Source: Mastigias papua (taxonomy: Eukaryota; Cnidaria; Scyphozoa; Rhizostomeae; Mastigiidae). Taken from it: a stretch of DNA of 64,000 nt. Location: NCBI GenBank assembly GCA_964019165.1, contig OZ025276.1, positions 2,169,840 to 2,233,839 of the forward strand. The letters run 5' to 3'. The notes under the pieces are model-generated. The model was given only the letters and a program-made list of their open reading frames with translations, was not told the DNA's origin and did no database searches. Shown here piece after piece: positions 9,531-61,800 of this stretch. The first letter of the stretch is position 1; each line of letters opens with the position of its first letter. Both the position numbers and the translations under genes were made by a program.

Positions 9531-12506
9531 ATCACTATATACTAAGATGCCTATATGATAATTTATGCCAAACCAATCAGATTGCTCGAATTTGTACCAC
9601 GTGACCCATTTTTTGCCTGATTTTAATGACACTTCTCCTCCTAGGCCTGTAGTGGGATCGCAACCAAATTCGGTTTAGGGGTTCTCCTTGGGGTCTATTT
9701 ACTCACAAAGGAGGGATTTTTCCATATCTGTTCTTTTTGCCGAGATATTCCACTTTCAACTTATGGCCACTGCTGTCCTATACCCTCCGACATGCTCACT
9801 TGACACCTCTGCGCAGGACTGTTGCTTTCACGTTTGCGAATGTTCATGGAGGACGATGGTGCTGTGTGTGATTGCGAGGAGATTTTTGTCACTGTCTTTC
9901 CAGGTAAACCGACTCTGTTGTCTGTAGATGGATTGATTTAAGATTCCATGTATGTCCTTTGTCCATTTCATCTGTATTCTGCTGTTGCGAGCCATTTATT
10001 TCTATATTTTTCAACCAGATTCAACCACCTTCCCTCGAAGTTATTGCCGCCATGACAGTTCTTCTCCAAGTTGTTTGATTCTATGTGCTAAATCACCGTG
10101 CTTTTACTACTACATTGTGAAAACATATTCAACATATGTTTGACTTTCTATTCTGTGCTAGACTATGGCAGTTTGTTTGCTCTTCATGCATATATTGATG
10201 ACATGGAATGGCGTGCGTGCTGCTTTCATTTGGGAATGTTTTGACATGCACTACCGTAATATTGCCGTGTGACTTGGAGGAGAATTTTGTCGTTCAGCTT
10301 TCAGTTTAGTGCTTTTTTCGCTTGATTTCATTCGCCAAGTTATCCTACTTTACCAAATTGTGATGAAATGATTACTGTATGTTTACTGTTGTATTCCTTG
10401 GTAGCTTGGAATTTATTCATTGCTTTTACCGCATGTACGAATGGCATAGGATATGGTTATGTTTGGCGATAAAGTAGTGGTATGTGGAATGGTTTCACTG
10501 AAGTATGTATAGGGCTATTGCTGAATTTGGTTACCCTAACTTTGCAGTTTTTACTTTCACCCTTTACTTTTGTCATAGTGTGTATGATGAAATGCAAGGG
10601 GATTCCCAAGTTCATCTCACGATCGCAGATACCTGTTGTCCTTTGTTTTGGAATTTAATTGCGGTCTTTTGAGGGTGATTCCATAACTTTGCTTCAAGGG
10701 CATTAAGATCATGGTAGTTCCCCTAAGTTTTTGCTTGATTTTCTGTTCTAAATTACCGTTTTGTTACTGCAGAAGTATCATTATGATATTCAGGAGGCAT
10801 TTAATGCAATATTTGCTTATGTACTAGGAGCCTTTAGCTTGCTCTTGATTCTTAGTATATGCACATGAGATGGATGTTAGGATGTCTCAAGAGTTAGGCC
10901 ACTTTGGTTACGTTTGAGATATTGCCCTTCAACTCGAATTTACTCCTTGATTTTATCATACATATTTTACAGGCAAACACTAGGATGTTACCAACTTTAT
11001 TCTCAGCTCAGTAACTCTCTTTTCAATATGTTTTCACTCTATTTACAGTAGGCCTCATGGTTATTTCCACTATAGATGGTAGAGGTATTTTGGTGAAGTC
11101 ATATTAAAGGGGTTCTACTAAACTAAATGTTCTTTTGTTGGGACACAGTTGCCCTTCTTTCTCAGATCATTTGATATAAATTCCATTACTGAATTCCATA
11201 GATCATTCTGCACGTGATGATATACTCTTAAGGGATGAATTTATCTTGCCCCCACTGAAGTAATACCTTCATTTGAAATCTTAGTTGGTAATGCAGTATA
11301 TATATTATGACTCAATTCAAAGAATTACTGACTTCCATGGATCATTCTGCATATGATAGTATAGATTTTTAGGGATGAATTAGTACTAGATAGCAACATT
11401 TTGATTTATGGAGCCACTTTCTTCTATCCAACTACCATTATTATTTGAAATCTGAATTTTACATGGTTGTAACATATAATTTAGTACTGGATAGCTGCTT
11501 TATTTGTTTTGTATAGCCATAACCTATGAACTCCCCCCAAGAACTTTGGTTGAAATCTAATATGATGATTCATGCTGCTCAGTCATGGGCTTTACACTCT
11601 GTTATATATATAAAGCTGTGATATAGGAATACTAAGCAATATTCTTTTGTTTTATCACCTGGAACTACACAGTCCTATCATAGATTCCAGTTGTATAACA
11701 CCTACATTTATGGGTCAGACTTGATCCTTTACCTCTGTAGACAAGATTAGTGGTCACCTACACGATAACAGAACCACTCATACCTGCCAATTCATGTGCT
11801 ATATTGTATCTGTTATGACATCCTAAAATTATATCACTAGATTTTACAAAACTCCTTAAGTTAGAATTGAGTGAACCAGGAGACAATATGTAATGTAGTT
11901 TCATTAGCGCCTCATTTTAGAGAGCATTTTAAACAATTCTGTGCATAATTCATATAATATAGACTAGCTTAGTACTGATAGCCCGCTAGAACGCGGGCTC
12001 CCCTAGCCCCAGTTGAAATGTTGCATATTAGCCTTGGAAAGACTAACGCTGTGCCCCCATGAAAGTTGCATGGTCTGGTCGCATAGGATTACGAGAAGGT
12101 GACGTTATGGGACTCTGCGATGGAGCACGTGACTTTCGGCCTTGCATTGTGCAAATCGAAGAAAATTGCGAGAAACAATTGTGCAAAAAGTGGTCGGATA
12201 CCTGCGCTAGGCTACGGGGCTTCTTGACTTTCTTCCTGTCCCTTTACTGCCCCGTAGCCTAGCGCAGGTATCCGACCACTTTTTGCACAATTGTTTCTCG
12301 CAATTTTCTTCGATTTGCACAATGCAAGGCCGAAAGTCACGTGCTCCATCGCAGAGTCCCATAACGTCACCTTCTCGTAATCCTATGCGACCAGACCATG
12401 CAACTTTCATGGGGGCACAGCGTTAGTCTTTCCAAGGCTAATATGCAACATTTCAACTGGGGCTAGGGGAGCCCGCGTTCTAGCGGGCTATCAGTACTAA
12501 GCTAGT
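9531..12506 (+). mobile_element. Helitron-like non-autonomous repeat, copy 1
   Basis: From CACTATATACTAAGATGCC (9531) this sequence is nearly identical to 46880 onward for about 1760 bp, up to 11292. It then has about 670 bp absent from copy 2, and both rejoin at ACTAGCTTAGTACTGATAG. The 5' end (TC-ACTATATACTAAG) and the 3' end (hairpin GCCCGC/GCGGGC, a short spacer, then CTAA) resemble Helitron termini. No Rep/helicase is encoded. Small open frames shared by the copies (for example 9688-9927) look like chance. Inside, a segment around 11185-11320 is partly repeated at 11321-11470. The Helitron label is inference; the repeat itself is certain. Confidence 0.6.
11963..12506. repeat. perfect palindrome, 258-bp arms, 28-nt loop
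   Basis: The left arm 11963-12220 is the exact reverse complement of the right arm 12249-12506, with 12221-12248 as loop. Each arm begins with a small GC hairpin (GCCCGCTAGAACGCGGGC). The same palindrome is present at 48650-49179 with the loop in the opposite orientation. Identical 67-residue open frames in the two arms are a by-product of the symmetry. Confidence 0.97.
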
Positions 12507-12713
12507 CCTAGAATACTATTTATACACTTAATAGTATAACAGAATGTTCCTTACTCTTCCAGATCATTCCATCTAAGAACTTTCTAGAATATTGTAAAAA
12601 GCTATATAATTCACATTGCAGAATAGTTGGTTAAATCAGTGCTTAGTAAAGTGAGTCTTATTGAAAGAATAGACTATATACATCAACGATTTCAACAGGT
12701 AGATGGTTTACTT

Positions 12714-21616: not shown

Positions 21617-24600
21617 TCGGGTAGTGGGGTAGAGATAACTCTGCCAGTAGGAGTGGTAAGACGACTCCTTCCCTCCACTAGTCTGCGGGAGGCTCTTGGG
21701 CAAGGCCGCGTACCCGCTCAGCCCCCCAATCAGGGTAACGTGAAATCGTGGCAGGCAGGCGATGGATGAAGTGTGAGAGCAGCTGGAGGAACTCCAGAAC
21801 TGGTCTTGCATTTCTACGTGCCAGGCAGATGATATTAACTTTGATACAATGGCTGGGACACATGTCCAGTAAGGACACTGCTCTTGTAGAAAGCAATGGC
21901 AAACTACTACAAGTATTTCTTGCTAAGGAAACTTGAACATGACTATTACAAACAGCTCAAAGAACGATATGGGACTCAACAGTGAGACCCCCAAGCTGGA
22001 TGAGCCCCTTATTAGTATTGGGGAAGAGCTTGAGGCCGGTGGGAGTATCACTCTTGCTGGGAATATCACTCCAGCTCATGATGGCAAAACGCCTGATTCT
22101 ACAGAGATGAGAAAGAACCGGAACAGATGGCTGAAGAGGAAACTCAAACTTGGAACGTGGAATATCAGAAGCATGGCAGCTGGTAAACTGAACACTATTA
22201 TTGAAGAAGCGAAAACAAATAATGTTGACATCTTGGGAGTTGCTGAACATCGTTGGGCAGGGAGTGGCCATTTCACAACAAATTGCGGTGGACAATTTAT
22301 GTACTCAGGTAGGGAGATAGCAGGTCAAAGTGGAGTGGGCGTATTTTTATCAAAAGCAATAGTGAGAAGCCTTATAGGATATAAACCAGTGAATGATAGA
22401 ATCATCACCATCAGACTATTGGGGCAAGTAAAAAACATCACACTGATACAAGTATACGCTCCAACGTCTGCATCAACAGAGGAAGAGCTAGAAGAATTTT
22501 ATGATGCATTACAAAAAGAGATAGATAGCAAAGAAAATCAAGACATCCTGGTCGTCTCGGGAGATCTCAATGCCAAAGTAGGATCGAAAAGACATACTGA
22601 AGAAGATGGAATAGTTGGAAATGTAGGGCTGGGAGAGAGAAATGATAGAGGAATCAGACTTGTTGACTTTGCAATCTCAAACCATCTAGCAATAAAAAAT
22701 ACAATGTTTGAGAAACACCCAAGAAGGCTGTATACCTGGACATCACCAGATGGAGTAACGAAGAACCAAATTGATTATATAATGATTGAAAAGAGATGGG
22801 CCTCTTCTATACAAGATGTCACCACCAAACCAAGTGCTGACTGCGACACGGACCATGAATTCCTTGTGGCAACATTTAAAGTGAAATTGAAATGCAAGAA
22901 AATAACTGCAAGGCCTGTCCGATATGACGTACAGGAAATGGATGAGAACTTCAACATTGAAGTAAGGAATCGTTTCAGAGTATTGCTTATGAATATTGAA
23001 GAAAAAGAACCTGATGAGATTGCAAATGAAACAAAAAGCATCTATGTGGAAGCAGCACAAAAACACTTGAGAAAGAGGCTTGTGAAAAGACAACCCTGGT
23101 TGACCGAAGAGACACTACAGAAGGTAAAACAAAGAAAAGAGGCAAAGAAAACAGCTGGAGCTCACAGTAATGACTATAAGGCAATTGCAAAAGAGGTGAG
23201 ACAGATGTGTCGTAAGGATAAGACAAAATATCTGATTAGAAAGTGCCAGAAAATAGATGAATTTATGAAAGAAAATAAAAGCAGAGACATGTACAATGAA
23301 ATAAAAAGCATCACGAGAACATTCAAACCACGACTTGGTGTTATAAAAGATGAGAGCGGAAAGATCTTGACAGAGGCTGGAAATATAGTAGATCGATGGA
23401 AAAGATATTGTGAAGGAATGTTCACAAGTAATGTACCAACAGCTGAAGTTCAACAAGTGAGGATTGAAGATATAGAAGACAAGGAAGATCCATGCCTACC
23501 ACCTTTGAAATCAGAGGTTGAATGGGCTATCAAATCATTAAAAGATGCGAAAAGTCCTGGATGCGACAAAATTCAGGCAGAAATGATAAAAGCAAGTGGA
23601 TTAGAAGGAATAGAAGTGTATCACAAGTTGTGTACTAAGATATGGCAAACAGGACAATGGCCTACTGACTGGAAAAGAGCAATCTTTATAGCACTACCAA
23701 AGAAAGGAGATTTACAACAATGCTCTACTTATAGAACAATATCATTGATCAGCCATGCAAGCAAAATATTGCTCAAAATCATAATGAGAAGAATTGAGAG
23801 CAAAATTGAGGAAGAAGTAAACAAAACACAGGCAGGGTTTAGAAAGAATAGAGGGACGCGAGACCACATCTTTAACTTACGCATGATTGTCCAGAAATAT
23901 CGGGAAATGAACACCAGTCTTCATACATGCTTTATCGATTACTCCAAGGCTTTTGACAGTATAAATCATGGAGAAATGTGGAATACTTTAAAGGAAATGA
24001 ACTTTGATCCTAAAAGTATATTGCTGATTAGGTCGCTCTACGAAGGACAACAATCGGCAGTGCAGTTGGAATGTGGAACAACAGATTGGTTTCCAATCAC
24101 AAGAGGGGTGAGGCAGGGGTGCATATTATCACCTCATCTCTTCAGTATTTACACGGAGGGAATTATGAGAGAAGTGGAGCATGACCATAGGAATGAGGAA
24201 TACGATGAACCTACATTGCAAGGAGTGCCCATAAGAGACTTGAGATATGCGGATGACATTGCACTACTAGCCACAACCCCAAGAGGGCTTGAAGCTCTTA
24301 TACAGTCTGTTAAATATCATAGTGAGCAAAGAGGTTTGCACCTGAATGTAAAGAAAACCAAAATCATGGATATAGACAAATGCAAAGAGGAGGCTGTAAT
24401 AACGATTAATGGGGAGGAAATAGAAAGAGTGAACAATTTTGTATATCTGGGAGCACGAATCGATGCAAATGGGAAGTCAACTCTGGAAATAAGAAGAAGC
24501 TGGCAATGGCAGGATCAAAATTGAAAAAGATGACAAACATCTGGAAGGGACAAAGTATATACACCAAACTGAGAATTTTAAGAAGTGTTGTATTTCCCAC

Positions 24601-28143: not shown

Positions 28144-28990
28144 TCAGTACTGTTCTGCGATGTGCTGCAGGATGTTTTCAACTGCTTCTCCTGTATTGTG
28201 GCCAAATCTTTCCCTCCACATAAATTCATCCAGGTACGAGGGTACAAGATGCAACCTGCTGCCATATACAGCTTTGATTTTCTGCTTCACCATAGACCAA
28301 TAGCTTTCCATGCCCTGGGTGTGTACTCCTGTGACAGGATCCACAAAGTTATCCTGGTGTATCACACACCTGTGAACATAGCCATGATTCGCAACGATGT
28401 TGTATGCAGCCCATCCATCTGAATACACCATTGATCCAGGGCGAATGAACTGCTGTATGATTGGCAGAAATGTTGCTTTGTCTTGTTGTGGCACAACGTA
28501 TATCCAACCCTTCTTTGTTTCTCGATCATACAGCCCAAACACCCATTGATCATGCTGTTGGGGAAGGTCACTAAGGTGGTATTTCCTATTTATCATGACG
28601 GATTCATCGATTTCCACGATCTGGCCAACGCCACCCAGCATCTTGTCAGCAAAAGGCATTCGAAGTACGTTTGCAGAACATTTCTCTCGCAAAGGCGTAC
28701 CAATCAATGATGGACAGATTGCAGAGTCCCAGATCTGTTGTGGAAGTGCTCATACACATGCCACCTTACCAGCAGTATATAATGGACATGACATCATGCA
28801 TGCCTAAGTTCGATTTGTCAAAAAACTCCCTGGTCAGACACTCTTGGTTTTACAGCATCAAGCCTGCGAACATGTCCAATGATAACCATCCTTGCTATCA
28901 CCTCTGGCCTGTAGGTGCATTGGTCCCCTATGTCTCCGCTCAGTACACCGCACTCTCTCCTTCTAAAGGCCCCTCCCCTGCAGCCATCAC
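28144..28990 (-). pseudogene. Merlin transposase (IS1595/ISXO2-like)
   Basis: Merlin elements are eukaryotic relatives of IS1016/IS1595. The intact catalytic part (28707 down to 28144) has GQIVEIDESVMINRKYH (first Asp), VYSDGWAAYN (second Asp), HTQGMESYWSMVKQKIK (Glu) and the terminal YLDEFMWRERFG. Upstream in a shifted frame are FFDKSNLGMHDVMSIIYCW and LSIIDWYAFAR, the N-terminal part of the family, with a frameshift near 28680 and stops near 28750 and 28880. The catalytic triad is complete but the N-terminus is broken. TIRs and the expected 8-9-bp duplication were not located. Confidence 0.88.
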
Positions 28991-34465: not shown

Positions 34466-36706
34466 TGTATGGCGCGGCATAAGGGTAAAAAATGGGGCGT
34501 CATAATGGTAGGTCATCGTAGCTCTACAGCCCCGCTTTCCGGAAAGCATTGTCGAGCAGTATTACGACCATGCTTTCTGGAAAGCATCATCGTAAAGTAT
34601 GACTATGAAGTCCAGAAAGCATCGTCGCACAAACTCTCACGCTACAATGTGGGAAAGCGTCGTCGCATCCTCATTTTATTTTACGCTACACTTAGGGAAA
34701 GCGTCGTCGTAACCGTGTTTTCAGTTTTTGCTATGATTAGGGAAAGCGTGGTCATATCCTCATTTACATTCTGTGCTGCAATGTGGATTGTGCCAATTGT
34801 ACGGCCCCGCTTTCTGGAAAGCATCGTCGAGCAGTATTACGACCATGCTTTCCGGAAAGCATCATTGTAAAGTGCGATCATGAAGTCCAGAAAGCATCAT
34901 CGTAGAACCGTTCACGCTACGATTAGGGAAAGCGTCATCGTAACCTCGTTTTCATTTTACGCTACGATTAGGGAAAGCGTCGTCACAAACTTGTTTTCAT
35001 TTTACGCTACGATTTGGGAAATCGCCGTTGTAACCTTGGTTTCATTTTACGCTACGAAGTGGGAAAGCAGCGTCGTACTTGTTTTCATGTTAAAACGGGA
35101 GAAAGTCACATCGCATGGAACAGAGAGAGCAGCAGAGATAAAAGTCAGTATACAAGTGTTATTGCTCACATTGCTTTCTACAAGAGTGTTTGAAAAGTAA
35201 CTAGTGGTAGACTGTTTGTCTTTTTCATATGTCTCAAAACGGCAAAGCTCCCCAAAGCTTCGATTCAACAGCTTAAGCGGCTGCGAAATAAAAGTCGTAA
35301 GCAAATATCATTGGGAGTACTTTCAAATCAAGGGCTTACTTGGGAAAACCTTTTTTAAGCTCTCATCATCTGGAATAATCTATCTTATTCAACTATGGGG
35401 TGATTACAGGGTATAAACGAGAGAGCTATTATAGCAGCAGATGAGCTTTCCTATAAACTTTACTTTCAGCAGCTTTCAGTGACTTCCTTTTGTTTCATCA
35501 AAAGTGCTTTGTGTCATTATTTAACGTGCAGAGAACATGGAAGCAGAGAACGGAAATGAACAGCAGGAAATAAAGGTAATAGGAAAGTGTGACGTAGTGG
35601 TCCTTTGTTCGTGTTTGATTGGCGGTGTGAATGGACGGATGAGAAGGAAACCCTGTCGAGATAGAAAATGTCCTAACGCTATGATGTTTACAGTCACAAG
35701 CCGATGAAAAGCAGTTGATCCGCAGATGGAAAATGACCTAAGCTACAATGTGTATGTTCACAGAAACTATTTCAACAATTTTTCCATTTTGAAAACGACT
35801 TTTCCAACAACTTTTCCATTTTGATCGTTCAGCTACGACATCCTTCGTTCTAAAACCTTTTTCCAGTAATGAACAAAGTATGTACTGACATGTGTGGAAT
35901 AAATTCCAACAAAGAGCTTGCAATCATAAGTACCATAATATGTTTAGCTAGGCTATTACATTTCCAATACTCGAGCTGTCCAGCAGTCGAGTTATGTGAT
36001 ATCACTTATATACCGAAAATGTGTTGAACCCAGGTTGACTTCAACCCAGGTTGCAAGTTGTAATGTAAACAGGGCTTATCTCTGTTGCCTGCTCTGTTCC
36101 ATGTGATGCGACTTTCTCCCATGGTAACATGACAACGAGTACGACGCCGCTTTCCCAAATCGTAGCGTAAAATGAAAACGAGGTGACGGCGGCGATGTCC
36201 CAAAGTGTAGCGTAAAATGAAAACGAGGTTACGATGACGCTTTCCCTAATCGTAGCGTGAACGTTTCTATGACGATCCTTTCCAGGATTCATGGTCGCAC
36301 TTTATGACGATGCTTTCCGGAAAGCATGGTCGTAATACTGCTCGACGATGCTTTCCGGAAAGCGGGGCCGTACGATTGACACAATCCACATTGCAGCACA
36401 AAATGTAAACGGGGATATGACCATGCTTTCCCTAATCGTAGCAAAAACTGAAAATGAGGTTACGACGACGCTTTCCCTAAGTGTAGCGTAGAATAAAATG
36501 AGGATGCGACGACGCTTTCCCACATTGTAGCGTGAGAGTTTGTGCGACGATGCTTTCCGGACTTCATGGTCGTACTTTACGACCATGCTTTCCAGAAAGC
36601 ATGGTCGTAATAATGCTCAATGATGCTTTACGGAAAGCGGGGCCGTAGAGCTACGAAGACCTACCATGACGACGGCCCATTTTTGACCCTTATGCCGCAC
36701 CATACA
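34466..36706. mobile_element. 2.2-kb foldback element with modular inverted arms
   Basis: TGTATGGCGCGGCATAAGGGT at 34466 is matched inverted at 36706 (ACCCTTATGCCGCACCATACA read on the plus strand). Inverted similarity runs about 676 bp on the left (34466-35141) and 630 bp on the right (36077-36706). Each arm is built of repeated modules: TTTCATTTTACGCTACGATT and TAGGGAAAGCGTCGTCGTAAC, interleaved with GACCATGCTTTCCGGAAAGC palindromes. The 935-bp centre has no transposase. Flanking duplication is not clear. Long modular inverted arms fit a Foldback-type element, but the superfamily is unknown. Confidence 0.85.
35142..36076. other. unique centre of the foldback element
   Basis: No recognisable coding sequence. 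The right edge (about 36020-36078) has AACCCAGGTT words and GTAAACAGGGCTTA, like the MITE remnant at 15690-15845, suggesting a small MITE captured inside. Confidence 0.45.
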
Positions 36707-46879: not shown

Positions 46880-49179
46880 TCACTATATACTAAGATGCCT
46901 ATATGATAATTTATGCCAAACCAATCAGATCGCTCAGATTTGTACCACGTGACCCATTTTTTGCCTGATTTTAATGACACTTCTCCTCCTAGGCCTGTAG
47001 GGGGATCGCAACCAAATTCGGTCTAGGGGTTCTCCTTGGGGTCTATTTACTCACAAAGGAGGGATTTTTCCATATCTGTTCTTTTTGCTGAGATATTCCA
47101 CTTTCAACTTATGGCCACTGCTTTCCTATACCCTCCGCCATGCTCACTTGACACCTCTGCGCAGGACTGTTGCTTTCACGTTTGTGAATGTTCATGGAGG
47201 ACGATGTTGCTGTGTGTGATTGCGAGGAGATTTTTGTCACTCTCTTTCCAGGTAAACCGACTCTGTTTTCTGTAGATGGATTGATTTAAGATTCCATGTA
47301 TGTCCGTTGTCCATTTCATCTGTATTCTACTGTTGCGAGCCATTTATTTCTATATTTTTCAACCAGATTCAACCACCTTCCCTCGAAGTTATTGCCGCCA
47401 TGACAGCTCTTCTCCAAGTTGTTTGATTTTATGTGCTAAATCACCGTGCTTTTACTGCTACATTGTGAAAACATATTCAACATATGTTTGACTTTCTATT
47501 CTGTGCTAGACTATGGCAGTTTGTTTGCTCTTCATGCATATATTGGTGACATGGAATGGCGTGCGTGCTGCTTTCATTTGGGAATGTTTTGATATGCACT
47601 ACCGTAATATTGCCGTGTGACTTGGAGGAGAATTTTGTCGTTCAGCTTTCAGTTTAGTGCTTTTTTCGCTTGATTTCATTCGCTAAGTTATCCTACTTTT
47701 CTTACTAAATTGTGATGAAATGATTACTGTATGTTTACTGTTGTATTCCTTGGTAGCTTGGAATTTATTCATTGCTTTTACCGCATGTACGAATGGCATA
47801 GGATATGGTTGTGTTTGGCGATAAAGTATCGATATGTGGAATGCTTTCACTGAAGTATGTATAAGGCTATTGCTAAATTTGGTTACCCTAATTTTGCAGT
47901 TTTTACTTTCACCCTTTACTTTTGTCATAGTGTGTATGATGAAATGCAAGGGGATTCCCAAGTTCATCTCACGATTGCAGATACCTGTTGTCCTTTGTTT
48001 TGGAATTTAATTGTGGTCTTTTGAGGGTGATTCCATAACTTTGCTTCCGGGGCATTAAGATCATGGTAGTTCCCCTAAGTTTTTGCTTGATTTTCTGTTC
48101 TAAATTACCGTTTTGTTACTGCAGAAGTATCATTATGATATTCAGGAGGCATTCAATGCAATATTTGCTTATGTACCAGGAGCCTTTAGCTTGCTCTTGA
48201 TTCTTAGTATATGCACATGAGATGGATGTTAGGATGTCTCAAGAGTTAGGCCACTTTGTGTACGTTTGAGATATTGCCCTTCAACTCGAATTTACCCCTT
48301 GATTTTATCATACATATTTTACAGGCAAACACTAGGATGTTACCAACTTTATTCTCAGCTCAGTAACTCTCTTTTCAATTTGTTTTCACTCTATTTACAG
48401 TAGGCCTCATGGTTATTTCCACTATAGATGGTAGAGGTATTTTGGTGAAGTCATATTAAAGGGGTTCTACTAAACTAAATGTTCTTTTGTTGGGACACAG
48501 TTGCCCTTCTTTCTCAGATCACTTGATATAAATTCCATTACTGAATTCCATAGATCATTCTGCACGTGATGATATACTCTTAAGGGATGAATTTATCTTG
48601 CCCCCACTGAATTAATACCTTCATTTGAAATCTTAGTTGGTAACTAGCTTAGTACTGATAGCCCGCTAGAACGCGGGCTCCCCTAGCCCCAGTTGAAATG
48701 TTGCATATTAGCCTTGGAAAGACTAACTCTGTGCCCCCATGAAAGTTGCATGGTCTGGTCGCATAGGATCACGAGAAGGTGACGTTATGGGAGTCTGCGA
48801 TGGAGCACGTGAATTTCAGCCTTGCATTGTGCAAATCGAAGAAAATTGCGAGAAAAAATTGTGCAAAAAGTGGTCGGATACCTGCGCTAGGCTACGGGGC
48901 AGTAAAGGGACAGGAAAAAAGTCAAGAAGCCCCGTAGCCTAGCGCAGGTATCCGACCACTTTTTGCACAATTTTTTCTCGCAATTTTCTTCGATTTGCAC
49001 AATGCAAGGCTGAAATTCACGTGCTCCATCGCAGACTCCCATAACGTCACCTTCTCCTGATCCTATGCGACCAGACCATGCAACTTTCATGGGGGCACAG
49101 AGTTAGTCTTTCCAAGGCTAATATGCAACATTTCAACTGGGGCTAGGGGAGCCCGCGTTCTAGCGGGCTATCAGTACTA
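46880..49179 (+). mobile_element. Helitron-like non-autonomous repeat, copy 2 (nested)
   Basis: Nearly identical to 9531-11292 across 1760 bp, then joins straight to ACTAGCTTAGTACTGATAG at 48642, lacking the 670 bp present in copy 1. It ends with the palindrome 48650-49179. Common sequence between the copies stops at TATCAGTACTA, just past the terminal GC hairpin. Substitutions are few and scattered, so the two copies are recent relatives. Confidence 0.65.
48650..49179. repeat. near-perfect palindrome, 251-bp arms, 28-nt loop
   Basis: Left arm 48650-48900, loop 48901-48928, right arm 48929-49179. I see one arm mismatch (GATCACGAG against the complement of CTCCTGATC). The arms differ from those of copy 1 at about seven sites, and every one of those differences is present in both arms. 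The loop is the reverse complement of the copy 1 loop with one change. Confidence 0.97.
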
Positions 49180-51453: not shown

Positions 51454-52146
51454 GGTTAATTCCATTAACTGCAAGGAATTAAGTACATAGAAGTATCATG
51501 GTGTAATTATGAGATATCTCTCCTACTGGGTAGCTATGGTAGACAATCTATACATCAACAATATGATGAGAAAATGATAAGTAGTCTATTGCTTCTAACT
51601 GCATTTGCATATTGGCTTGGTGCAGTGTTAGGAATTTCGAATTGTAGTCTAGTTTAATCCTTGTTCTTGTAACATACCTATAGCATAACTCTATTTTAAA
51701 GGAACGCCTACTGTTTCTCTGTTCTCTAGAATGTAGAAGTGTTTCCAGAAAGAGGGAAACTGAATGCCCAATTAAATCATGCTGAGCAAGACGTTATGAT
51801 CCTCCACGTCACATGCCCAGAGTTCATAACTGGTGTGACTCTGAAGCGAGAAATGTAAAGGCACTGTATGGTCTGAGAAAGCCAGCAAGGAAGAAGGATC
51901 CAGCAAAAAACAGACTATCATATTCCAAAAGCATTTTCGGTAGATAGTTGCAGAGCCATTGTCATGAATCTGCCAAGGCATCTACTAGGTGTCCACACAG
52001 TTGACTGGAATAGTGAAGAATATGAAACCCTTAAGGCAAAGGCTGTTAAGATGGAATGAACAGGGTCACTTAAGTCAAAGGCTGGTGCTTCGTGTGAAAG
52101 GCCAAGTAAAGATTCCTTGACACTGATCCTCTACAACAAGAATCTA
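51454..52146. other. no recognisable gene
   Basis: Short open stretches on the plus strand (about 51750-52080, basic, for example RKPARKKDPAKNRLSYSKS) could be decayed coding sequence but could not be assigned. Confidence 0.3.
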
Positions 52147-52422
52147 CAATAGTCGCCAAAAGTCCTTGCGACACCTACGGAAAAAGTAAATACCACCATA
52201 TTCCTCTGAGCTTCCTTAATTTTACACCTTACAGGCAACCCCCTCCCCCCAGAAACAATGGTGCTTGACGGAGGAGACACTTGACGCTATTGCACACATG
52301 AAATTTTTCTGCTATTGTATATACTCCTTCCAAAAACCAACATTGTGTAAGGGGAGGAGGGGGATGAGAGATGAGTGCAGAGTAAAAAATTCAAAGTGTC
52401 CCAGGACTTTTGGTGGCTATTG
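52147..52422. mobile_element. 276-bp MITE, copy 1
   Basis: Starts CAATAGTCGCCAAAAGTCC and ends GGACTTTTGGTGGCTATTG, inverted with one mismatch; the symmetry reaches about 28 bp. A second copy is at 56880-57156. No target duplication is visible at this copy. Confidence 0.8.
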
Positions 52423-53198
52423 TCTGGTGGTGAAACGTGTCAAACCATGTTATACCTGCAATGTATTGGTCGGTCAAGGGGTAATCAATGGTGCTGAACA
52501 TGATGGTGATGATAAAAATGGTGTAAGTCACCTCTGTGACATCATATCGCGTGGGGGTCTATCAGTTTGCCTCTGTGGCAGTTTACCTGCCTAAAGTGAT
52601 ACTTCGACGAAAGGTTTAGTGCTGGACCACACTTTTATCGGTAGATCAAGCATCGTGGAACATGTCCTGAGAATATGTACACAATTGGGAGCTAAGTAGC
52701 TCTCTATATACGTGAGTAATGCCCTTGTGGTATGTGTGTGTAAAACATTGCAAACAAGGCTACCACACAATCCTCTGTTAATAATAATAATCATCATTAT
52801 CTAGATGCAGATTTTCACTGATACATTTATACACAAGTACTTTGGCTCTTTGGTAGTATGTACATTCTGAAAATAGCTGTAAATAGCTTCTAATCGTGTA
52901 GTTTTTCACCTGTATTTTTACAAGAGACATCAGATTTTTCACAACAAAAGTGCCATTTTAATGGTTGATATGTACTGCATATGTCCATTACCGTCAAAGT
53001 GTTTGGACAACGTCTGTTTTCAAACAATAAGCACATGGCAGGAATAGTCAAAGTATTCCTTGTGGCACAAACGTTGCAGTTGGCTACAGAGAATAACAAT
53101 AAACTCACAGGCATAATAGTCTACTTATTCCTCGTGTAGCAAAAGTAGCACTTGGTTACAGAGAATGACGAGAAATTCATAGAGATAGTAATATCATA
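52423..53198. other. upstream region of the Rep-like gene, no clear gene
   Basis: No recognised coding sequence. No GTTTACAC cluster like that downstream of the gene is present here. Confidence 0.35.
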
Positions 53199-54000
53199 AT
53201 GACTCAACTAAATACCAATGAAGGTAGAAAAGTGTATCTGCTAACAGAAGGTACAGAAAGGTTCACTTGTGAGTCCTTCGCAAAAAGTGTAACAACTGCT
53301 TTCCAAGCTGTAACAACAGCTCTCATTATTCAATGGGCATGTTGCATGGAACATCATATGGATGCGGGTGTCCATTTTCATATGTGTGTTCTTTTGAGCA
53401 AGCTTCAGAGATGGAAGAAAGTTAAGACATATCTCCAGGAGCATAGAAATATTGTTGTTAACTTCTCAGGTCACTCTGGGTATCATACAGGTTACCAGTA
53501 TGTTACAAAGCAGGATACCCAGGTTCTGAGAAGCGAGAATCACCCAACTGCAAGTGCTGTCCCTAAGACATCTTTGGCAATACGGAATCGTTCGTCACAT
53601 TAGAAAGGCAAATCTGCACAGAAGAAATGGCTTAGTAACGTGGAGGTCTCCAACATCATTGTCTCACACAGCATTGACTCCAAGGTGCATCTCCTTGCCC
53701 TGACAATAAAGAGAAGAGCGAATGGTGACAGCAGGCTGTATGAGTTTGTATTGAATAGAGGTGAAAAAAGAGTGAACGAACTCATACAGTCTGTATGGTC
53801 AATGGAAAGGGCACAGCAAACATTGGACTAGAGGTCAATTCCCGCACTGTTCTCCTCAAAAAGGCCTATAATAATACGTGTGTCTGTGAAGGTGAGTGGT
53901 TGCAGTGTGCCAAGCAGATTCTCTGTAACAACAGCATTCAGCGAAGCATATTTGCTGATGCCGTTATTACATTACTCGCCATGGGTCACAGGAAGGGCAG

Positions 54001-54072
<72 letters not shown>

Positions 54073-54485
54073 CAGGTCTAGCAAACTGTGGCAAAACATT
54101 CATTCTTGACCCCTTACAAGTTATTTATAACACTTTCCTTTCACCTGCGACTTGTTCGTATGCGTGGCTAGGGGTTTAAGACAAAGAAGGTATCGTTTTG
54201 AATGACTTTCAGTATACTCCAGCTATCTTACCTTCAAATGACATGCTATTGTTGTTAGAAGGTCACGTCATCCATTTTGCTGTGCCTAAAACCACCTATG
54301 CTAGGGATATTGAGTTTACCAGTGACACTCCAGTTTTTGCCACATCCAAGTCTCCCATAGTCTTCATCAAAGACTCCAGTATTGATGAGAGAGAGACAGA
54401 AATGATGGATGTCAGATGGAGAAAGTTTCACTTTTTCCATCAGATTCCCATTTCTTCTCAAAAGACCTTATACTCGACATGGTAG
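53199..54485 (+). pseudogene. Rep-like protein: HUH endonuclease plus superfamily 3 helicase
   Basis: The layout is that of replication initiators of CRESS-type ssDNA replicons: a nicking domain followed by an SF3 helicase. Visible motifs: GVHFHMCVLL near residue 65 (His-hydrophobic-His), YHTGYQYVTKQD near residue 100 (catalytic Tyr and Lys), Walker A GLANCGKTFIL (near 54080), Walker B-like IVLNDFQY (near 54200) and the motif C-like VFATSKSPIVF (near 54335). Length about 430 residues. Lesions are TAG at 53601, a frameshift near 53828, a (TA)n run at 54001-54071 just before Walker A, and TAA at 54177. I recall homologues as uncharacterised invertebrate proteins. An old integrated replicon and a Rep-coding transposon are both possible. 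Downstream lie iteron-like repeats and stem-loops. Confidence 0.8.
54001..54071. repeat. (TA)n microsatellite within the Rep-like gene
   Basis: About 35 TA units placed between the linker (MGHRKGSN) and Walker A. Homologues have a short hydrophobic strand there, so the run has grown inside coding sequence. Confidence 0.98.
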
Positions 54486-54551
54486 AATGATAGGTAGCAA
54501 TAGGTATAATAGCCCCCCACAGTCTTTATGGAATCTGTGCTATTGTATACA

Positions 54552-54611
54552 TACACCGTGACAATCAGACACTGCAGGCTATATCCCGCAGTGTCTTCTT
54601 GTCATGTATGC
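54552..54611 (+). promoter_or_regulatory. stem-loop 1 downstream of the Rep-like gene
   Basis: GACACTGC (54568-54575) pairs with GCAGTGTC (54588-54595) around a 12-nt loop. The stem extends with TGACAA/TTGTCA and CATACA/TGTATG separated by 3-nt internal bulges. A cruciform of this size next to a Rep gene is a candidate nicking or termination site. Confidence 0.6.
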
Positions 54612-54614
54612 TAC

Positions 54615-54982
54615 AGTTTACACGGTTTACACCCACAGTTTACACTTGTGAAATGCTCTATATTTCTTCTTCCAATATGTATTTAACGTTTGTAAACTAT
54701 GTAAAAGATGTACACGCTGTAGTACCAGAAAAATCGACATTTCTTGACGGTTTACACTTCTGAAGATGTAAGACTCAGATCATACGACTTTTGATAGAAA
54801 AATTTTGTAAACCATGCAGTTTTCCTTCATTACTGCAAAACATGTATATGAAAAAATAATAAAAACTCACTGCCAGATGTACAAAGATTGCGTACATCTG
54901 GTACAGTAGTCAGTTTCCCCCTTATTTCAAGTGAAATGGCCTTTTTCAGTAGATTTTCAAGTGTAAACTGTGAGTGTAAACT
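54615..54982. promoter_or_regulatory. iteron-like GTTTACAC cluster
   Basis: GTTTACAC (mostly (A/G)GTTTACAC) occurs at about 54615, 54624, 54638 and 54749 in one orientation and as GTGTAAAC(T) at about 54961 and 54974 in the other. Repeated short words beside a Rep gene are the usual Rep-binding sites (iterons). That role is inferred. Confidence 0.55.
54873..54901 (+). promoter_or_regulatory. stem-loop 2: 10-bp perfect stem, 9-nt loop
   Basis: CCAGATGTAC and GTACATCTGG pair perfectly around the loop AAAGATTGC. The size matches the origin stem-loops of CRESS replicons (about 10 bp, 9-11 nt loop), but the loop does not match their conserved nonanucleotide on either strand. It lies between the two oppositely oriented GTTTACAC groups. 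Confidence 0.6.
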
Positions 54983-54989
54983 GTTGCTA

Positions 54990-55540
54990 CTACCAGTTGT
55001 TGTTGTTGAGTATGAGTTCTATGGGAGCACATACAAGCGTGTGATTTAGTATGATCAGCAGACAGTTGCTTGTCGATGGTTTCCTTTCAAATAGTGAAGG
55101 GTTCAGCATCTTCTCCAAATGTACTATGACTGTTCATGTTGGAAAGGAACCTAGAAAAGACTTAAAACTCTGGAGTATTAGGTTTAGTATCGACAAGAAC
55201 TCTACGTATATACTACTTATGAGAACGACTAGCCACAGGGGTATCAAGCCCCCTGCCCCTCAGAGCCCCTTCTCCTATCATTAGAGTCCCTAAGTAGTAT
55301 GTAGGTGTTACAGCATTTACATTTGTACACATCTTCTCTGTCCTAAATAAGTTGTGTACAGTTTTACATAATAGTATCCAAATGCATGAACATAGTTAAT
55401 ATTTCGTTCGGGACCCTCTATTTTTAGTCATTTTAATTAATCGGTTATACATGCTACTTATTGTTTAATCTATGATACCTTTGTCATAAGTAGACATTGT
55501 GCGCACAATTCTATGCTTAAATGCAATTAAATCTTCATTT
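54990..55540. other. spacer with one short open frame
   Basis: A frame of 77 codons (55051-55284, plus) beginning MISRQLLVDGFLSNSEG follows the iteron-like cluster. It is unrecognised and may be chance or a second small gene of the Rep-like unit. Confidence 0.25.
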
Positions 55541-56470
55541 ACTATCCTATTATCTAAGGCATCTTGCCTGAGCTTCCATTTAACGGTATGAAAGACATTT
55601 CTATGGGTCTAAATCTGGGGACCTTGCCGGACTTTTAACGACCTCTGCCCCTATGTTGTTTGGTGCTTCTTTTGCTTTCGCACTGTTTTGGCTCAGGTCA
55701 TTATCTTGAAGAAAAAGCAATTTATCTTTTCCTTTTGCAGCAGCCCGATCAATAAGTATTTTATGCAAACTTTTTGTGATAAAGTCCGACAAGTATTTTC
55801 GGTTCATTGTCGTATACTCCTCAACCGGTACTGTTCTGCCCCCAAAAGAAATGCCTACTACATAGTGACAAATATGTCCACCCCTGGGATCTTTCCTCCC
55901 TTTTGCTGTTAGCTCAAGACCTTCACCAAGCGTTCTCCACACCCTGGTGGCTGGTGCCAAAGCATCCTCATAGGGATTTTGTTTGTGGACAAACGACACT
56001 GCATCTAAGTACAGCAGAACATCCTCTGTCCAGAAAGCGGGAGTCGTATTTTTACAGCCTTAACTGCATACGCAACCCATTTCCTTTTGTCACTGGCCGT
56101 CAGGATGCCTTTTCTCCTTGGCCGAACAAACTTATACCCAGACTGGTTGAGAAGTCTACACAACGTCCTAGTACTGACATGATGGAGTTCACAATCCATT
56201 GCAATAGCCCCTACCGTCAAGTTTGGATTTTGTTCTCTCATACATTTAACTTTATCAGAAAGCGATCCTTCTCTCCTCTGTTGAGTATTGGAGGTCTACC
56301 ATTCCATTTTTAGGCAGTTTACACTCCATACCCAATGTAGAGATGCACTTGATGCTAGACTTAGAGTTGTTACATAGAGTAGCAATCTGACGAAGCGACA
56401 ATGTACCCTCTTGTCGCAATAAGGTAACGTAAGCTTTTCTGTAATCTGGTATCTTACCGTATTTTGCCAT
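55540..56470 (-). pseudogene. Tc1/mariner-like (IS630-type) transposase
   Basis: Begins at 56470 with a helix-turn-helix (YRKAYVTLLRQEGTLSLRQI). After a frameshift near 56270 there are GRPPILNRGEKDR, REQNPNLTVGAIA and LLNQSGYKFVRPRRKGIL. After another near 56040 comes FWTEDVLLYLDAVSFVHKQN (first Asp), HYVVGISFGGRTVPVEEYTT, LFLQDNDLSQNSAKA (second Asp in the DND(P)SQN context) and SPARSPDLDPIEMSF (third acidic). It degrades after 55560. All three catalytic acids are present but two frameshifts split the gene. The TIRs and TA duplication could not be placed. Confidence 0.85.
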
Positions 56471-56879
56471 TACACCTCACTCATTGAGAACCGTTATAGT
56501 CGAATTTTGCTGCCAGGGGCAACCGATTATGAAAGCACTTTAGAAGCCACAGTGAACTGCATGATTACGAGGCTACCTCCTTGGTGCTTTGCTGTGTTCA
56601 CCACATTATTCAAACTCCCCTTGTTTTTGTGTCGTATAGAGTGTACACTCTTGTTGTTTTCTAAACACGACTTACATGTGAACTACTATATGCAAACATG
56701 CCTTTTATCTGCACTTTAAGGAGGCAAGGACCATAAATCCTACACCATGATGTTGGTATGACGTCACGGGGTAGACCTATGGGAAACTCTGCACACCATC
56801 ACACTCGGCGCCCCCGAAAACCCCATGTTCCGACCTGATCGCAGCTCAGTAGTGTCTATAGCGAAAATGTGATAGCAGA
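56470..56879. other. no recognisable gene
   Basis: 5' flank of the Tc1-like relic; no repeat or coding signal supported. Confidence 0.35.
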
Positions 56880-57156
56880 CAATAGTCACCAAAAGTCCTT
56901 AGGACACCTGCGGCAAAAGTAAACAAAAACCATATTCCTCTGAACTTCCTTACTTTTACACCTTACAGGCAACCCCCTCCCCCAGGAACAATGTTGCTTG
57001 ATGGAGGAGACACTTGACACTATTGCACAAGTGACATTTTTCCGCTATCATATATACTCCTTCCAAAAACCAACATTATTTAAGGGGAGTAGGGGGATGA
57101 GAATAGAGCGCAGAGTAAAACAGTGCAAAATGTCTCAGGACTTTTGGTGGCTATTG
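56880..57156. mobile_element. 277-bp MITE, copy 2
   Basis: Starts CAATAGTCACCAAAAGTCC and ends GGACTTTTGGTGGCTATTG. High similarity to 52147-52422, same orientation. No target duplication is visible. The Crypton-like reading begins within a few bases of its right end. Confidence 0.8.
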
Positions 57157-57158
57157 TA

Positions 57159-58879: not shown

Positions 58880-61800
58880 GTTGCTTATGTCTAAACCAAT
58901 GATGATAAGCTGGCAAAGAGATCTCTACGCATCAAGTCAAACTGGTGGCGTATACACGTTCTACATATACAAGTTGGGCTACTACAATCACAGTTGTGTC
59001 GAAATCTGTGCTCATTCAGTGCACTGAAGTTCACACGCAACTTTGTCAGCTTTCTGATACCTTCTATATCAAAGACATCATAAACAGTGTTTTTAGGTGG
59101 TCTTATACTTGCAAGTAGTTTCTCTTTAAACTCGGATATGGATTGTGAATTTTTGATGTCATGATCTAGCAGATTCCATTCATAACGAACATTGTGGAAG
59201 TATGTATGCAAGAAACAAGTAGTTCTGGCGACATTCTGATCGTATGCGCGGGAATTTCTTACGTTGTACCATTGTTCGTGTTCAGGCGGTATTTCAGCGA
59301 AGAGGTACCCAGGTGAACCTGTTTCCGTAGGTTGTGAAATTGACATAAGCATCTGTACCACCTTCTGTGATATAGCTCTTCCCAACCTAGTTCATTGTAC
59401 AGTTTTTGCCTATTTGTACCTCTCCATGCTCTGGTTATGGCTAATGCAGCATGATACTGGGTTTGCTCCAGTCATTTTGTGACATTTAATATCATTTCAG
59501 GATCATACCTATGGTAGATAATATCATCATAGTCAATGGGGGTCTGACATAAAGCTTGTAAACTTGATCAAGCACACTTCTAGAGACAAGAGCAATTCCG
59601 ATGTGCTTGTGTTCCATTTGTCTATCAATATCATCAGTTCCTAGTGTAGGGATCATGCAAGGGTTTATCCCTTTTGGTCAAACAAATCACTTCCTATGTT
59701 TTGTCCGCATTGAAGTGCATTTTCCATTGCCACGACCACAAGCGCAATAGGTCAAGATCCCTATGTAGTTCCTCAGTACTTCTATCATTCCGAACAACGG
59801 AGCAGAGTGAAGTGTCATCAGCAAAAAGCTTAATATCACAGCGAACATTGTCAATAATGTCATTTATGTAAACCAGGAAAAACAGTGGCCCTAGAACAGA
59901 GCCTTGTGGGACCCCAGCAGATACAGTAGCCCACCTTGAGCATTTCCCAGTCAACAAGACATGTTTCTGACGATGAGTTACGAAGTTGCAGATTAAGATC
60001 AATAGATCCCCAGATACGCCATTACATTTGAGCTTATAAAGTAACCCCTCATGCCAAACTCTATCAAATGCCTTAGACAAGTCTAGAAAGACTGCTCGTG
60101 TTTCTTTGGAGGGAATTTCTTCAAAAGCACTGTACATTTTGTGAGTGATGGATAGACGTTGGTTGATCGCTGAATCACCAGGTCAAAACCCAGATTGATG
60201 TTTTGTTATTAAACCATGGTCACAAAGATGACAATAAAATATGTCAAAGATGATCTTGTTGAAGATCTTTCCAAAACTTGGCAGTAGAGATAAGTCTGCT
60301 TGCTCTGCCTACTGTCTTTTTTATGGACTGGGATGATGTTTGCTTTCTTCCACATGGTTCGGTAGATTCCTGTTTCAAGGCATTGTCCAAAAATCAAGCA
60401 TAGTGGTTCGACGATGGAAGTATCACAGATTTTGATCATTGAAATTGATATGTCATCACAACCATGAGCCTTTGTGGTGTCCAGTGCCGGAATTAATTTG
60501 GTTACTTTTTCCCTATCTATCTCAAGACTTTCAAGAAGAGCGCTGCACGTTGGTTGATAGTTTGGAAGAGTGCTGCTGTTCACGATAGTGGAACCCTGTT
60601 GAACAAAATGCTCATTTAGGATGTCTGCTTTCATTTGCACATTTGTCACAAAGAGTCCAATTTCAAGTAACAGAGGGATATTCAAGGTTGTTTTTATTTA
60701 TCAATCTGTCTAAAATCGCCCAGTGAGCCTTTATACCTTGGGCAGGATCAGACACCTTACGACTCATGGTTGAAAAGTAGTTTTCTTTGGCCTTGGTAAT
60801 CAATCTAGAAGTTTCATTTCGGACTTCTTTCACTAGATTCCAGTCCTCCAACCTTCGGCCACAATCTGTGTATTTTCTAAAAACTCTATGCTTGCGTTTT
60901 ATTGCAGTTTTTAATTCAGGAGTGATCCATAGTGGATCTTTGTTGTTGCACTTTATACCTTTGTAGGGAATATTTGCAGGTAGAAGTGAAAAATGGTGGC
61001 CGTGAACAATTCCGTCATTTCATTCAAACCAAGGCCCGCAAATCTTGATTGCCAATCTATGTCACTTATGAGCTCTCTAATCATAGGGGTATGTTGAACT
61101 ATCATACAGACATTGAAATATCGAACGATTCAAAATGAACCTTTCGATCATACAAGGTCATACTTTGAACTTTTGTACTATATGCTGATTGCAAAGGAAA
61201 TCCTGCGCTAGAACATTATAGACCTTTAATTCGCTTTTGATTGGACACCTTCTCGATCGTATGTTATGTTCTTGTTTTTATTGGCTTATAAATGATGCTC
61301 GGGGCATGCCCCATGATTGGTATAAAAATATGGTAAAGTTTAGAAGTAGGAGAGTTACGGAAATCAGCCAAACAAGTCACAAATAGTAGAAAGCTACAGT
61401 GTCATTCCAGTTTCTGCTGTCGTGTTGCTACTAGTCGTACTGAGGTCGTAAGTGTTTTCACATCTTATATTACGTAGACCTCTTAAAAGCATATTAGTAG
61501 GACCTTAAACTACTTTGTCATGTAACAGGTATTGGCCTTCGAATAATCCCATATCGTCCTTTTTTATGGAGAAGGATGGCGTATTGAAATGTTCAGCTTA
61601 CCGTAGACTATTTGGTGTTGACAGTGATCATCGAGGGAAGGATGGACTCCAGATTCTACAAATATGTTAGGTTGGTCAGTGATGATAAGATCTATACAGG
61701 ACATACATTCTCCCCTCAAGGTAGCTGGCTCATCAATAAGCTGATATTAGTTATTTGTTTCAAGTAGCTCATCTAAAGCAGTTCCCTCTGGATTCTCAAT

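Follow-up and report, generated by a model that had tools for sequence, protein, structure and literature searches.

A Rep gene with candidate iterons and a Tc1/mariner-type transposase gene within one 5-kb element of Mastigias papua

We analyzed a 64,000-nucleotide stretch of the Mastigias papua genome (GenBank assembly GCA_964019165.1, contig OZ025276.1), hereafter the window, which corresponds to C13:2169840-2233839 of a 346.8-Mb genome in 172 contigs. An initial annotation, made from the letters of the window, had described a gene resembling a replication initiator (Rep) with a linked origin-like region at 53199-54985. We found that this gene belongs to an element of 5.0 kb, with limits counted from CAAT to ATTG, in which Rep and a convergent transposase gene lie between direct terminal repeats of ~279 bp. 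The copy in the window is decayed, and about 20 dispersed copies are present in the genome. The element is probably a replicon-transposon, that is, a 5-kb DNA transposon with two mobility systems, a Rep replicon and Tc1-type insertion. The features of the window copy are as follows.

52147-57156, plus strand: whole element, decayed; limits common to copies L013-L016 and other copies with unrelated flanks
52145-52146, no strand: left TA of the target site duplication, before CAATAG
52146-52423, plus strand: left terminal repeat, imperfectly palindromic, with inverted ends; it begins with the A of the TA
53023-53166, plus strand: two 72-bp direct repeats upstream of the Rep start, present in relatives too; perhaps promoter
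53199-53600, plus strand: Rep piece A, HUH nuclease domain with the HFH motif; Rep starts at 53199
53604-53828, plus strand: Rep piece B, a linker that follows an in-frame TAG, with no notable Pfam match
54003-54070, no strand: (AT)34 run in the helicase region, directly before Walker A
54069-54176, plus strand: Rep piece with Walker A, by frame reading
54180-54482, plus strand: Rep piece with Walker B and motif C, by frame reading
54567-54596, no strand: hairpin 1, AGACACTGC-12 nt-GCAGTGTCT, exact; in copies of the window's subfamily
54613-54645, plus strand: three outer forward iterons
54747-54757, plus strand: inner forward iteron; its start is 60 bp before that of the inner reverse iteron
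54807-54815, minus strand: inner reverse iteron, one mismatch in the window
54873-54901, no strand: hairpin 2, CCAGATGTAC-9 nt-GTACATCTGG, 10-bp stem, exact; window's subfamily only
54961-54984, minus strand: two outer reverse iterons
55399-56470, minus strand: Tc1/mariner-type DDE transposase, broken; by tblastn with intact transposases
56879-57157, plus strand: right terminal repeat, in the same orientation as the left one
57157-57158, no strand: right TA of the target site duplication, by comparison of copies

The Rep gene of the window is broken by in-frame stops at 53601, 53829 and 54177 and by the (AT)34 run. The motifs named in the initial annotation were largely recovered. Its H-x-H motif is the HFH of piece A, and Walker A (GLANCGKTF), Walker B (LNDF) and motif C (ATSK) lie within 54069-54482 (frames read by eye). 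Its Tyr-x-x-x-Lys motif is better given as Y-x-x-K (YVTK), judging from 51 relatives, in which H62, H64 and Y104 are invariant and K107 is nearly so. The Pfam match of piece A, PF23343 (REP_ORF2-G2P; E 0.0013, 19.4 bits), falls below the curated cut-off of 27.8, and the assignment to HUH and superfamily 3 (SF3) helicase is supported by fold: Rep is a complete HUH-SF3 protein with a geminivirus-like HUH nuclease and a parvovirus/papillomavirus-like SF3 helicase. By sequence, Rep pieces A and E found no useful match in PDB (best E 0.16 with a profile of the 51 relatives), PHROGs gave nothing of note, and array unit L009 and the window had no match in Rfam.

We scored 150 of 353 candidate places in the genome and compared 20 dispersed copies (denoted by L-numbers), taking 9 kb per copy. 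L013-L016, located on the large contigs C12, C6, C17 and C21, share 99.6-99.8% identity over 4.9-5.06 kb and have unrelated flanks, and copies of the window's subfamily have exact ends in common. This places the termini, which had previously not been found, at 52147 and 57156, ~1 kb upstream and 2.2 kb downstream of the limits first drawn. Both genes are full length in five of the 20 copies, with Rep and transposase lengths of 424 and 359 amino acids (aa) in L013 and L016, 424 and 392 in L014, 423 and 359 in L019, and 427 and 406 in L029. Two other copies are split by stretches that contain frames of 707 aa (L022, 4935-7058 in Rep plus orientation) and 622 aa (L024, 6195-8063) and are probably nested elements.

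The flanks are TA/TA in 11 of the 13 two-ended copies, the exceptions being L019 (CA/CA) and L024 (TA/TC), whose right repeat runs on into 11 bp of the next unit's start. By eye, L030 also has TA/TA flanks, and L015 lies within a CATA microsatellite that is in register across the insertion site. Inverted ends of 31 bp delimit each terminal repeat, within which lies a second inverted pair containing C-rich and G-rich tracts; the whole would fold as a long hairpin (DNA fold z of -8.8 in L013, -11.1 in the L009 array unit and -4.25 in the window). Comparison of the left with the right repeat within a copy gives 96-100% similarity for 12 of 13 copies, with identity in L013 and L015, and 88% for the window copy; in L016, the right repeat is reduced to 130 bp. 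The direct terminal repeats of L030 and L032 are 95.6% alike over 229 bp and 99.0% alike over 197 bp, respectively. Between subfamilies, terminal repeats are 53-58% alike (three comparisons). These comparisons indicate that the left and right repeats of one lineage stay alike while lineages diverge, which could result from regeneration from a one-repeat circle or concatemer, or from gene conversion. The pair at 52146 and 56879 was also considered as two copies of a miniature inverted-repeat transposable element (MITE), and was identified by the comparison of copies as the element's terminal repeats.

Intact transposases are 359-406 aa long and convergent to the plus-strand Rep gene, and the transposase is opposite in strand to Rep in 19 of the 20 copies and in the window. 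In all four intact transposases scanned (L009, L013, L029 and L032), DDE_3 was above cut-off and HTH_Tnp_Tc3_2 was found, the latter above cut-off in L009 only. Hand-counting in the same four gave DD34E spacing, the counted D being chosen by analogy with Tc1 relatives. In L019 (C13:2271527-2280527), the copy with CA at both ends, both frames are open and D replaces the catalytic E. The ends, target and domains strongly support insertion into TA through the DDE transposase. The alternative that the HUH Rep is the real transposase, in the manner of a Helitron or Replitron, with the DDE gene as a passenger, appears improbable: a complete HUH-SF3 protein with a gemini-like nuclease fold would suit this role, but TA duplications with such inverted ends are a hallmark of Tc1-kind DDE integration, and the DDE gene is both constrained and present in 19 of 20 copies. 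The choice left by the initial annotation between an integrated single-stranded DNA (ssDNA) replicon and a Rep-coding transposon is settled towards the transposon by the termini, the TA duplications, the ~20 copies and the Tc1-type transposase.

We then compared the region between the stop codons of the two genes. The window contains four forward GTTTACAC words (54616-54757) and two reverse ones (54961-54981), as initially described in two opposite groups, and an imperfect seventh at 54807. Seven ACGGTYTAC-like sites were counted in the window region, whereas 200 shuffles gave 0.32 on average and at most 3. The count of the top 9-mer was matched by 3 of 500 dinucleotide shuffles for the window and likewise for L032, and by none of 500 for L013, L029, L030 and L009. 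The GTTTACAC words are not due to chance, as four subfamilies with differing words share one layout. In these subfamilies the words have a common core, ACGGTYTAC: ACGGTTTACAC in the window and L013, AACGGTCTACAC in L009, CACGGTCTACG in L029, and ACGGTTTACCATTT in L030 and L032. The layout is constant in the four subfamilies, with the outer forward iterons followed after 155-156 bp by the inner forward iteron, after 60-61 bp by the inner reverse iteron and after 154-165 bp by the outer reverse iterons; the first iteron spacing of the window is 112, unlike the 155-156 bp of the others. Of the 20 copies compared, 18 have the inner pair at 58-62 bp, as does the window. L028 has no forward inner iteron and L027 lacks the whole iteron region. 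Constant spacing with changing words would be expected of iterons read by a self-encoded initiator. Conservation and fold support a putative replication origin composed of Rep and the iterons.

Near the iteron centre, GAT-containing words occur at offsets of 31, 36, 38 and 35/39 in the four subfamilies, and pairing of the central inverted iterons into a stem is conceivable in each subfamily; no common nonamer was seen by eye. Both stem-loops first described, including the one with a 10-bp stem and 9-nt loop, are exact at their places. Hairpin 2 has its first arm in L013-L026 and the window; both arms occur together in 12 of the 20 copies as well as in the window, and neither occurs in L027-L032. 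Hairpin 2 was rejected as a conserved origin core because the hairpins are conserved only in the window's subfamily. Of the proposed minimal parts of a rolling-circle replicon, the HUH-SF3 Rep and the linked iteron region are supported and the hairpins are not; in homologous copies the repeats are kept, in 18 of 20 and in three other subfamilies, and the hairpins are absent outside the window's own.

The iteron region alone has inverted ends, and the window is rich in transposon-like frames, as would be expected from chance proximity of a degenerate Rep gene, a Tc1 element and a MITE ending in GTTTACAC. This reading can be given practically no weight, because the parts keep their order, orientation and spacing in copies from many contigs and from diverged subfamilies, which refutes it. 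The copies also refute a reading of 54613-54985 as an independent MITE ending in TTTACAC, since neither the position nor the layout of this region changes between subfamilies.

To assess constraint, we compared the coding sequences. Between subfamilies, the proportion of synonymous differences (pS) was 0.76-0.89 and that of nonsynonymous differences (pN) 0.23-0.36 (three subfamilies for Rep, four for the transposase), pointing to strong constraint on both proteins; synonymous sites are saturated and no ratio is given. Among near copies, dN/dS was 0.32-0.73 in four comparisons, which involve few changes and are little informative.

Units of 5,047 bp from a sister subfamily are arranged head to tail in arrays, and both frames of the unit are full length (Rep 429 aa, transposase 359 aa). 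By hand count, 26 small contigs account for at least 120 of the 150 scored places and C1 for 2. Gaps between the scored array places reflect, at least in part, the number of places scored: stretches sampled in such gaps on C32 and C95 are also array. Identity between C124 and C114 is 99.98-100% over the stretches compared. A frame of 433 codons is present in 93 of the 120 array units scored. On C1 (10877573-10887942; L011 and L033) lies a dimer, arranged repeat-body-repeat-body-repeat and ~99.6% identical to array units, with TA only outside its outermost repeats and with internal repeat junctions (CAGA...TCTG) that extend the palindrome. In head-to-tail multimers each junction has one repeat, common to both units. 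These observations show that multimeric forms of the element exist.

Taken as a replicon-transposon, the element would combine these parts as follows. Rep would bind the inverted iterons and nick near their centre, and rolling-circle-type amplification of a one-repeat circle would give head-to-tail concatemers. Cutting by the transposase would take place at the inverted ends that lie outermost in a pair of terminal repeats, and the resulting monomer or multimer, bounded by repeats, would enter TA. We infer that rolling-circle concatemers may precede the integration of such repeat-bounded units. The terminal repeats of a new insertion would be identical at the start because both would come from one repeat of the circle or concatemer; long terminal repeats also begin identical, although they arise by a different route.

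Several observations weigh against this reading. No conserved nonanucleotide or nick motif was seen by eye at the iteron centre of the four subfamilies, and no circle, nick or replication product was seen in the assembly data. In the sampled stretches of array contigs C124, C114, C103, C32 and C95 we found no other flank, and L027 has no transposase within its 9 kb. A repeat of another copy is closer than the copy's own partner in six of 13 copies (L018, L019, L022, L023, L025 and the window) and equally close in L013-L015 and L024, and the young copies are all alike, so the repeat comparison does not prove that terminal repeats pair by copy. The dimer and arrays could derive from unequal crossing-over between terminal repeats, whose likeness could be maintained by gene conversion.

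These last two processes are part of an alternative that we regard as possible but doubtful, in which an ordinary Tc1/mariner transposon captured Rep and the iterons, Rep serving repression, copy control or repair, with multimers arising by unequal crossing-over and repeats kept alike by gene conversion. The TA target, inverted ends and DD34E transposase suffice for insertion, direct repeats allow recombination, with tandem arrays as a common outcome, and the 27 of 120 scored array units without the 433-codon frame length resemble a drifting satellite. However, this alternative offers no reason for a constrained HUH-SF3 Rep and precisely spaced iterons across subfamilies. If the replicon-transposon reading is taken one step further, the element may tentatively represent a class of animal DNA transposon with two phases, a rolling-circle replicon with its own initiator and subfamily-specific iterons, and a TA-inserting Tc1-type transposon that would regenerate both palindromic repeats from one in each cycle.

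We expanded the search to Rep relatives elsewhere. A 134-aa piece gave 21 relatives among 24 candidates, a profile 109 among 2,338, and a full-length profile 867 among 6,702. The 120 of these 867 that were listed include two named organisms, the brittle star Amphiura filiformis and the coral Acropora millepora, and their contigs range from ~1.5 kb to 64 Mb, many being of a few kb and some metagenomic. One relative, P0111 (424 aa), is identical to the Rep of L023, so this species, or one very near to it, is represented by an assembly in the protein set. P0131, P0191, P0147, P0164 and other listed relatives have 147-312 members each, with a longest contig of 2.7-4.4 kb, and are large families elsewhere that possibly include free replicons. 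In P0018, an N-terminal part of Rep from another subfamily runs into the antisense strand of the transposase region, a hint of linkage between Rep and the transposase in other species. No relative was found in IMG/VR and GTDB contigs at the sensitivity used, with near-genome records possibly excluded. These data bear on a further alternative, an endogenous ssDNA or parvo-like virus with a transposase in the genome. The Rep fold is like that of viral initiators, the ends are palindromic, and the many few-kb contigs among the listed relatives could include free circles; but the array unit and L013 contain only Rep and the transposase among unspliced open reading frames of at least 150 aa, with no capsid gene, and IMG/VR holds no relative at that sensitivity. 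We consider this origin highly improbable.

The element shares features with familiar kinds of mobile DNA. Like Tc1/mariner transposons, it has DDE_3 and a Tc3-type helix-turn-helix, DD34E, TA duplication and inverted ends; unlike the single-gene Tc1/mariner form, it adds Rep, direct palindromic terminal repeats, an origin-like region and head-to-tail multimers. It integrates like a Tc1 element but is more than one. The HUH-SF3 Rep and iterons recall circular Rep-encoding ssDNA (CRESS-DNA) viruses, and the palindromic terminal repeats recall parvovirus termini; no capsid gene was seen in the element, and unlike these replicons it has the ends and target of a DDE transposon and joins a gemini-type nuclease to a parvo/papilloma-type helicase. 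As in Helitrons and other HUH transposons, an HUH nuclease is joined to a helicase, but the helicase is SF3 rather than SF1, the motif is YxxK, and there are a TA target duplication and a DDE transposase.

Among titles and abstract openings in the literature, we found no animal element in which Rep, a Tc1-type transposase, direct palindromic ends and iterons are described together; a repeat-library entry may exist. The geminivirus-like transposon of Tuber melanosporum, as outlined by Liu et al. (2011, PMC3198968), carries a Rep-like gene and transposase open reading frames between inverted terminal repeats. Like the element described here, it combines Rep-like and transposase genes with inverted ends and is dispersed in a eukaryote genome; unlike it, the truffle element, going by that outline, is fungal, has 37-bp terminal inverted repeats and no obvious target duplication, and its published Rep and transposases are broken; the outline gives no transposase type, direct terminal repeats, iteron layout or arrays. 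It is the nearest precedent, and a little-characterised one. For Teratorn, a fusion of piggyBac and a herpesvirus, the outline in PMC10175614 proposes that rolling-circle concatemers let a unit flanked by two transposons integrate. Teratorn similarly joins a replicon to a cut-and-paste transposon, by the same inferred logic, but is 180 kb long, carries herpesvirus genes and occurs in teleosts, whereas the element here has 5 kb, two genes and no capsid gene seen.

Other frames of the window resemble eukaryotic transposons by reading. An 863-aa frame at 21933-24524 resembles a non-LTR (long terminal repeat) retrotransposon endonuclease/reverse transcriptase, an apparent reverse transcriptase fragment lies at 59694-60137, and the frame at 28144-28707 resembles an IS1595-type transposase. 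Two 1.76-kb stretches (9532-11291 and 46880-48643) are 97.4% identical, and near them lie ~540-bp near-perfect palindromic stretches (11962-12507 and 48643-49179) of another repeat family. A cluster of direct and inverted satellite-like repeats occupies 34466-36706, with outer arms that are 90% alike and in opposite orientation.

In the scheme outlined in PMC5718144, eukaryotic DNA transposons are divided by enzyme into DDE, Rep/HUH and self-synthesising kinds. Complete genes of two of these kinds occur together in the element, separated by a precisely spaced origin-like region, and its multimers are compatible with both. As a small natural system, it would allow study of how a replicon and a cut-and-paste transposon merge, as has been proposed for Teratorn, and it provides natural variation in Rep proteins and in the words that they might bind. 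Large tandem arrays that are difficult to assemble could also originate from such elements. If the two-phase reading is true, the array contigs would be replication products, possibly partly extrachromosomal, and such elements may be widespread and overlooked, as the 867 relatives, including coral and brittle star and many on few-kb contigs, would suggest.
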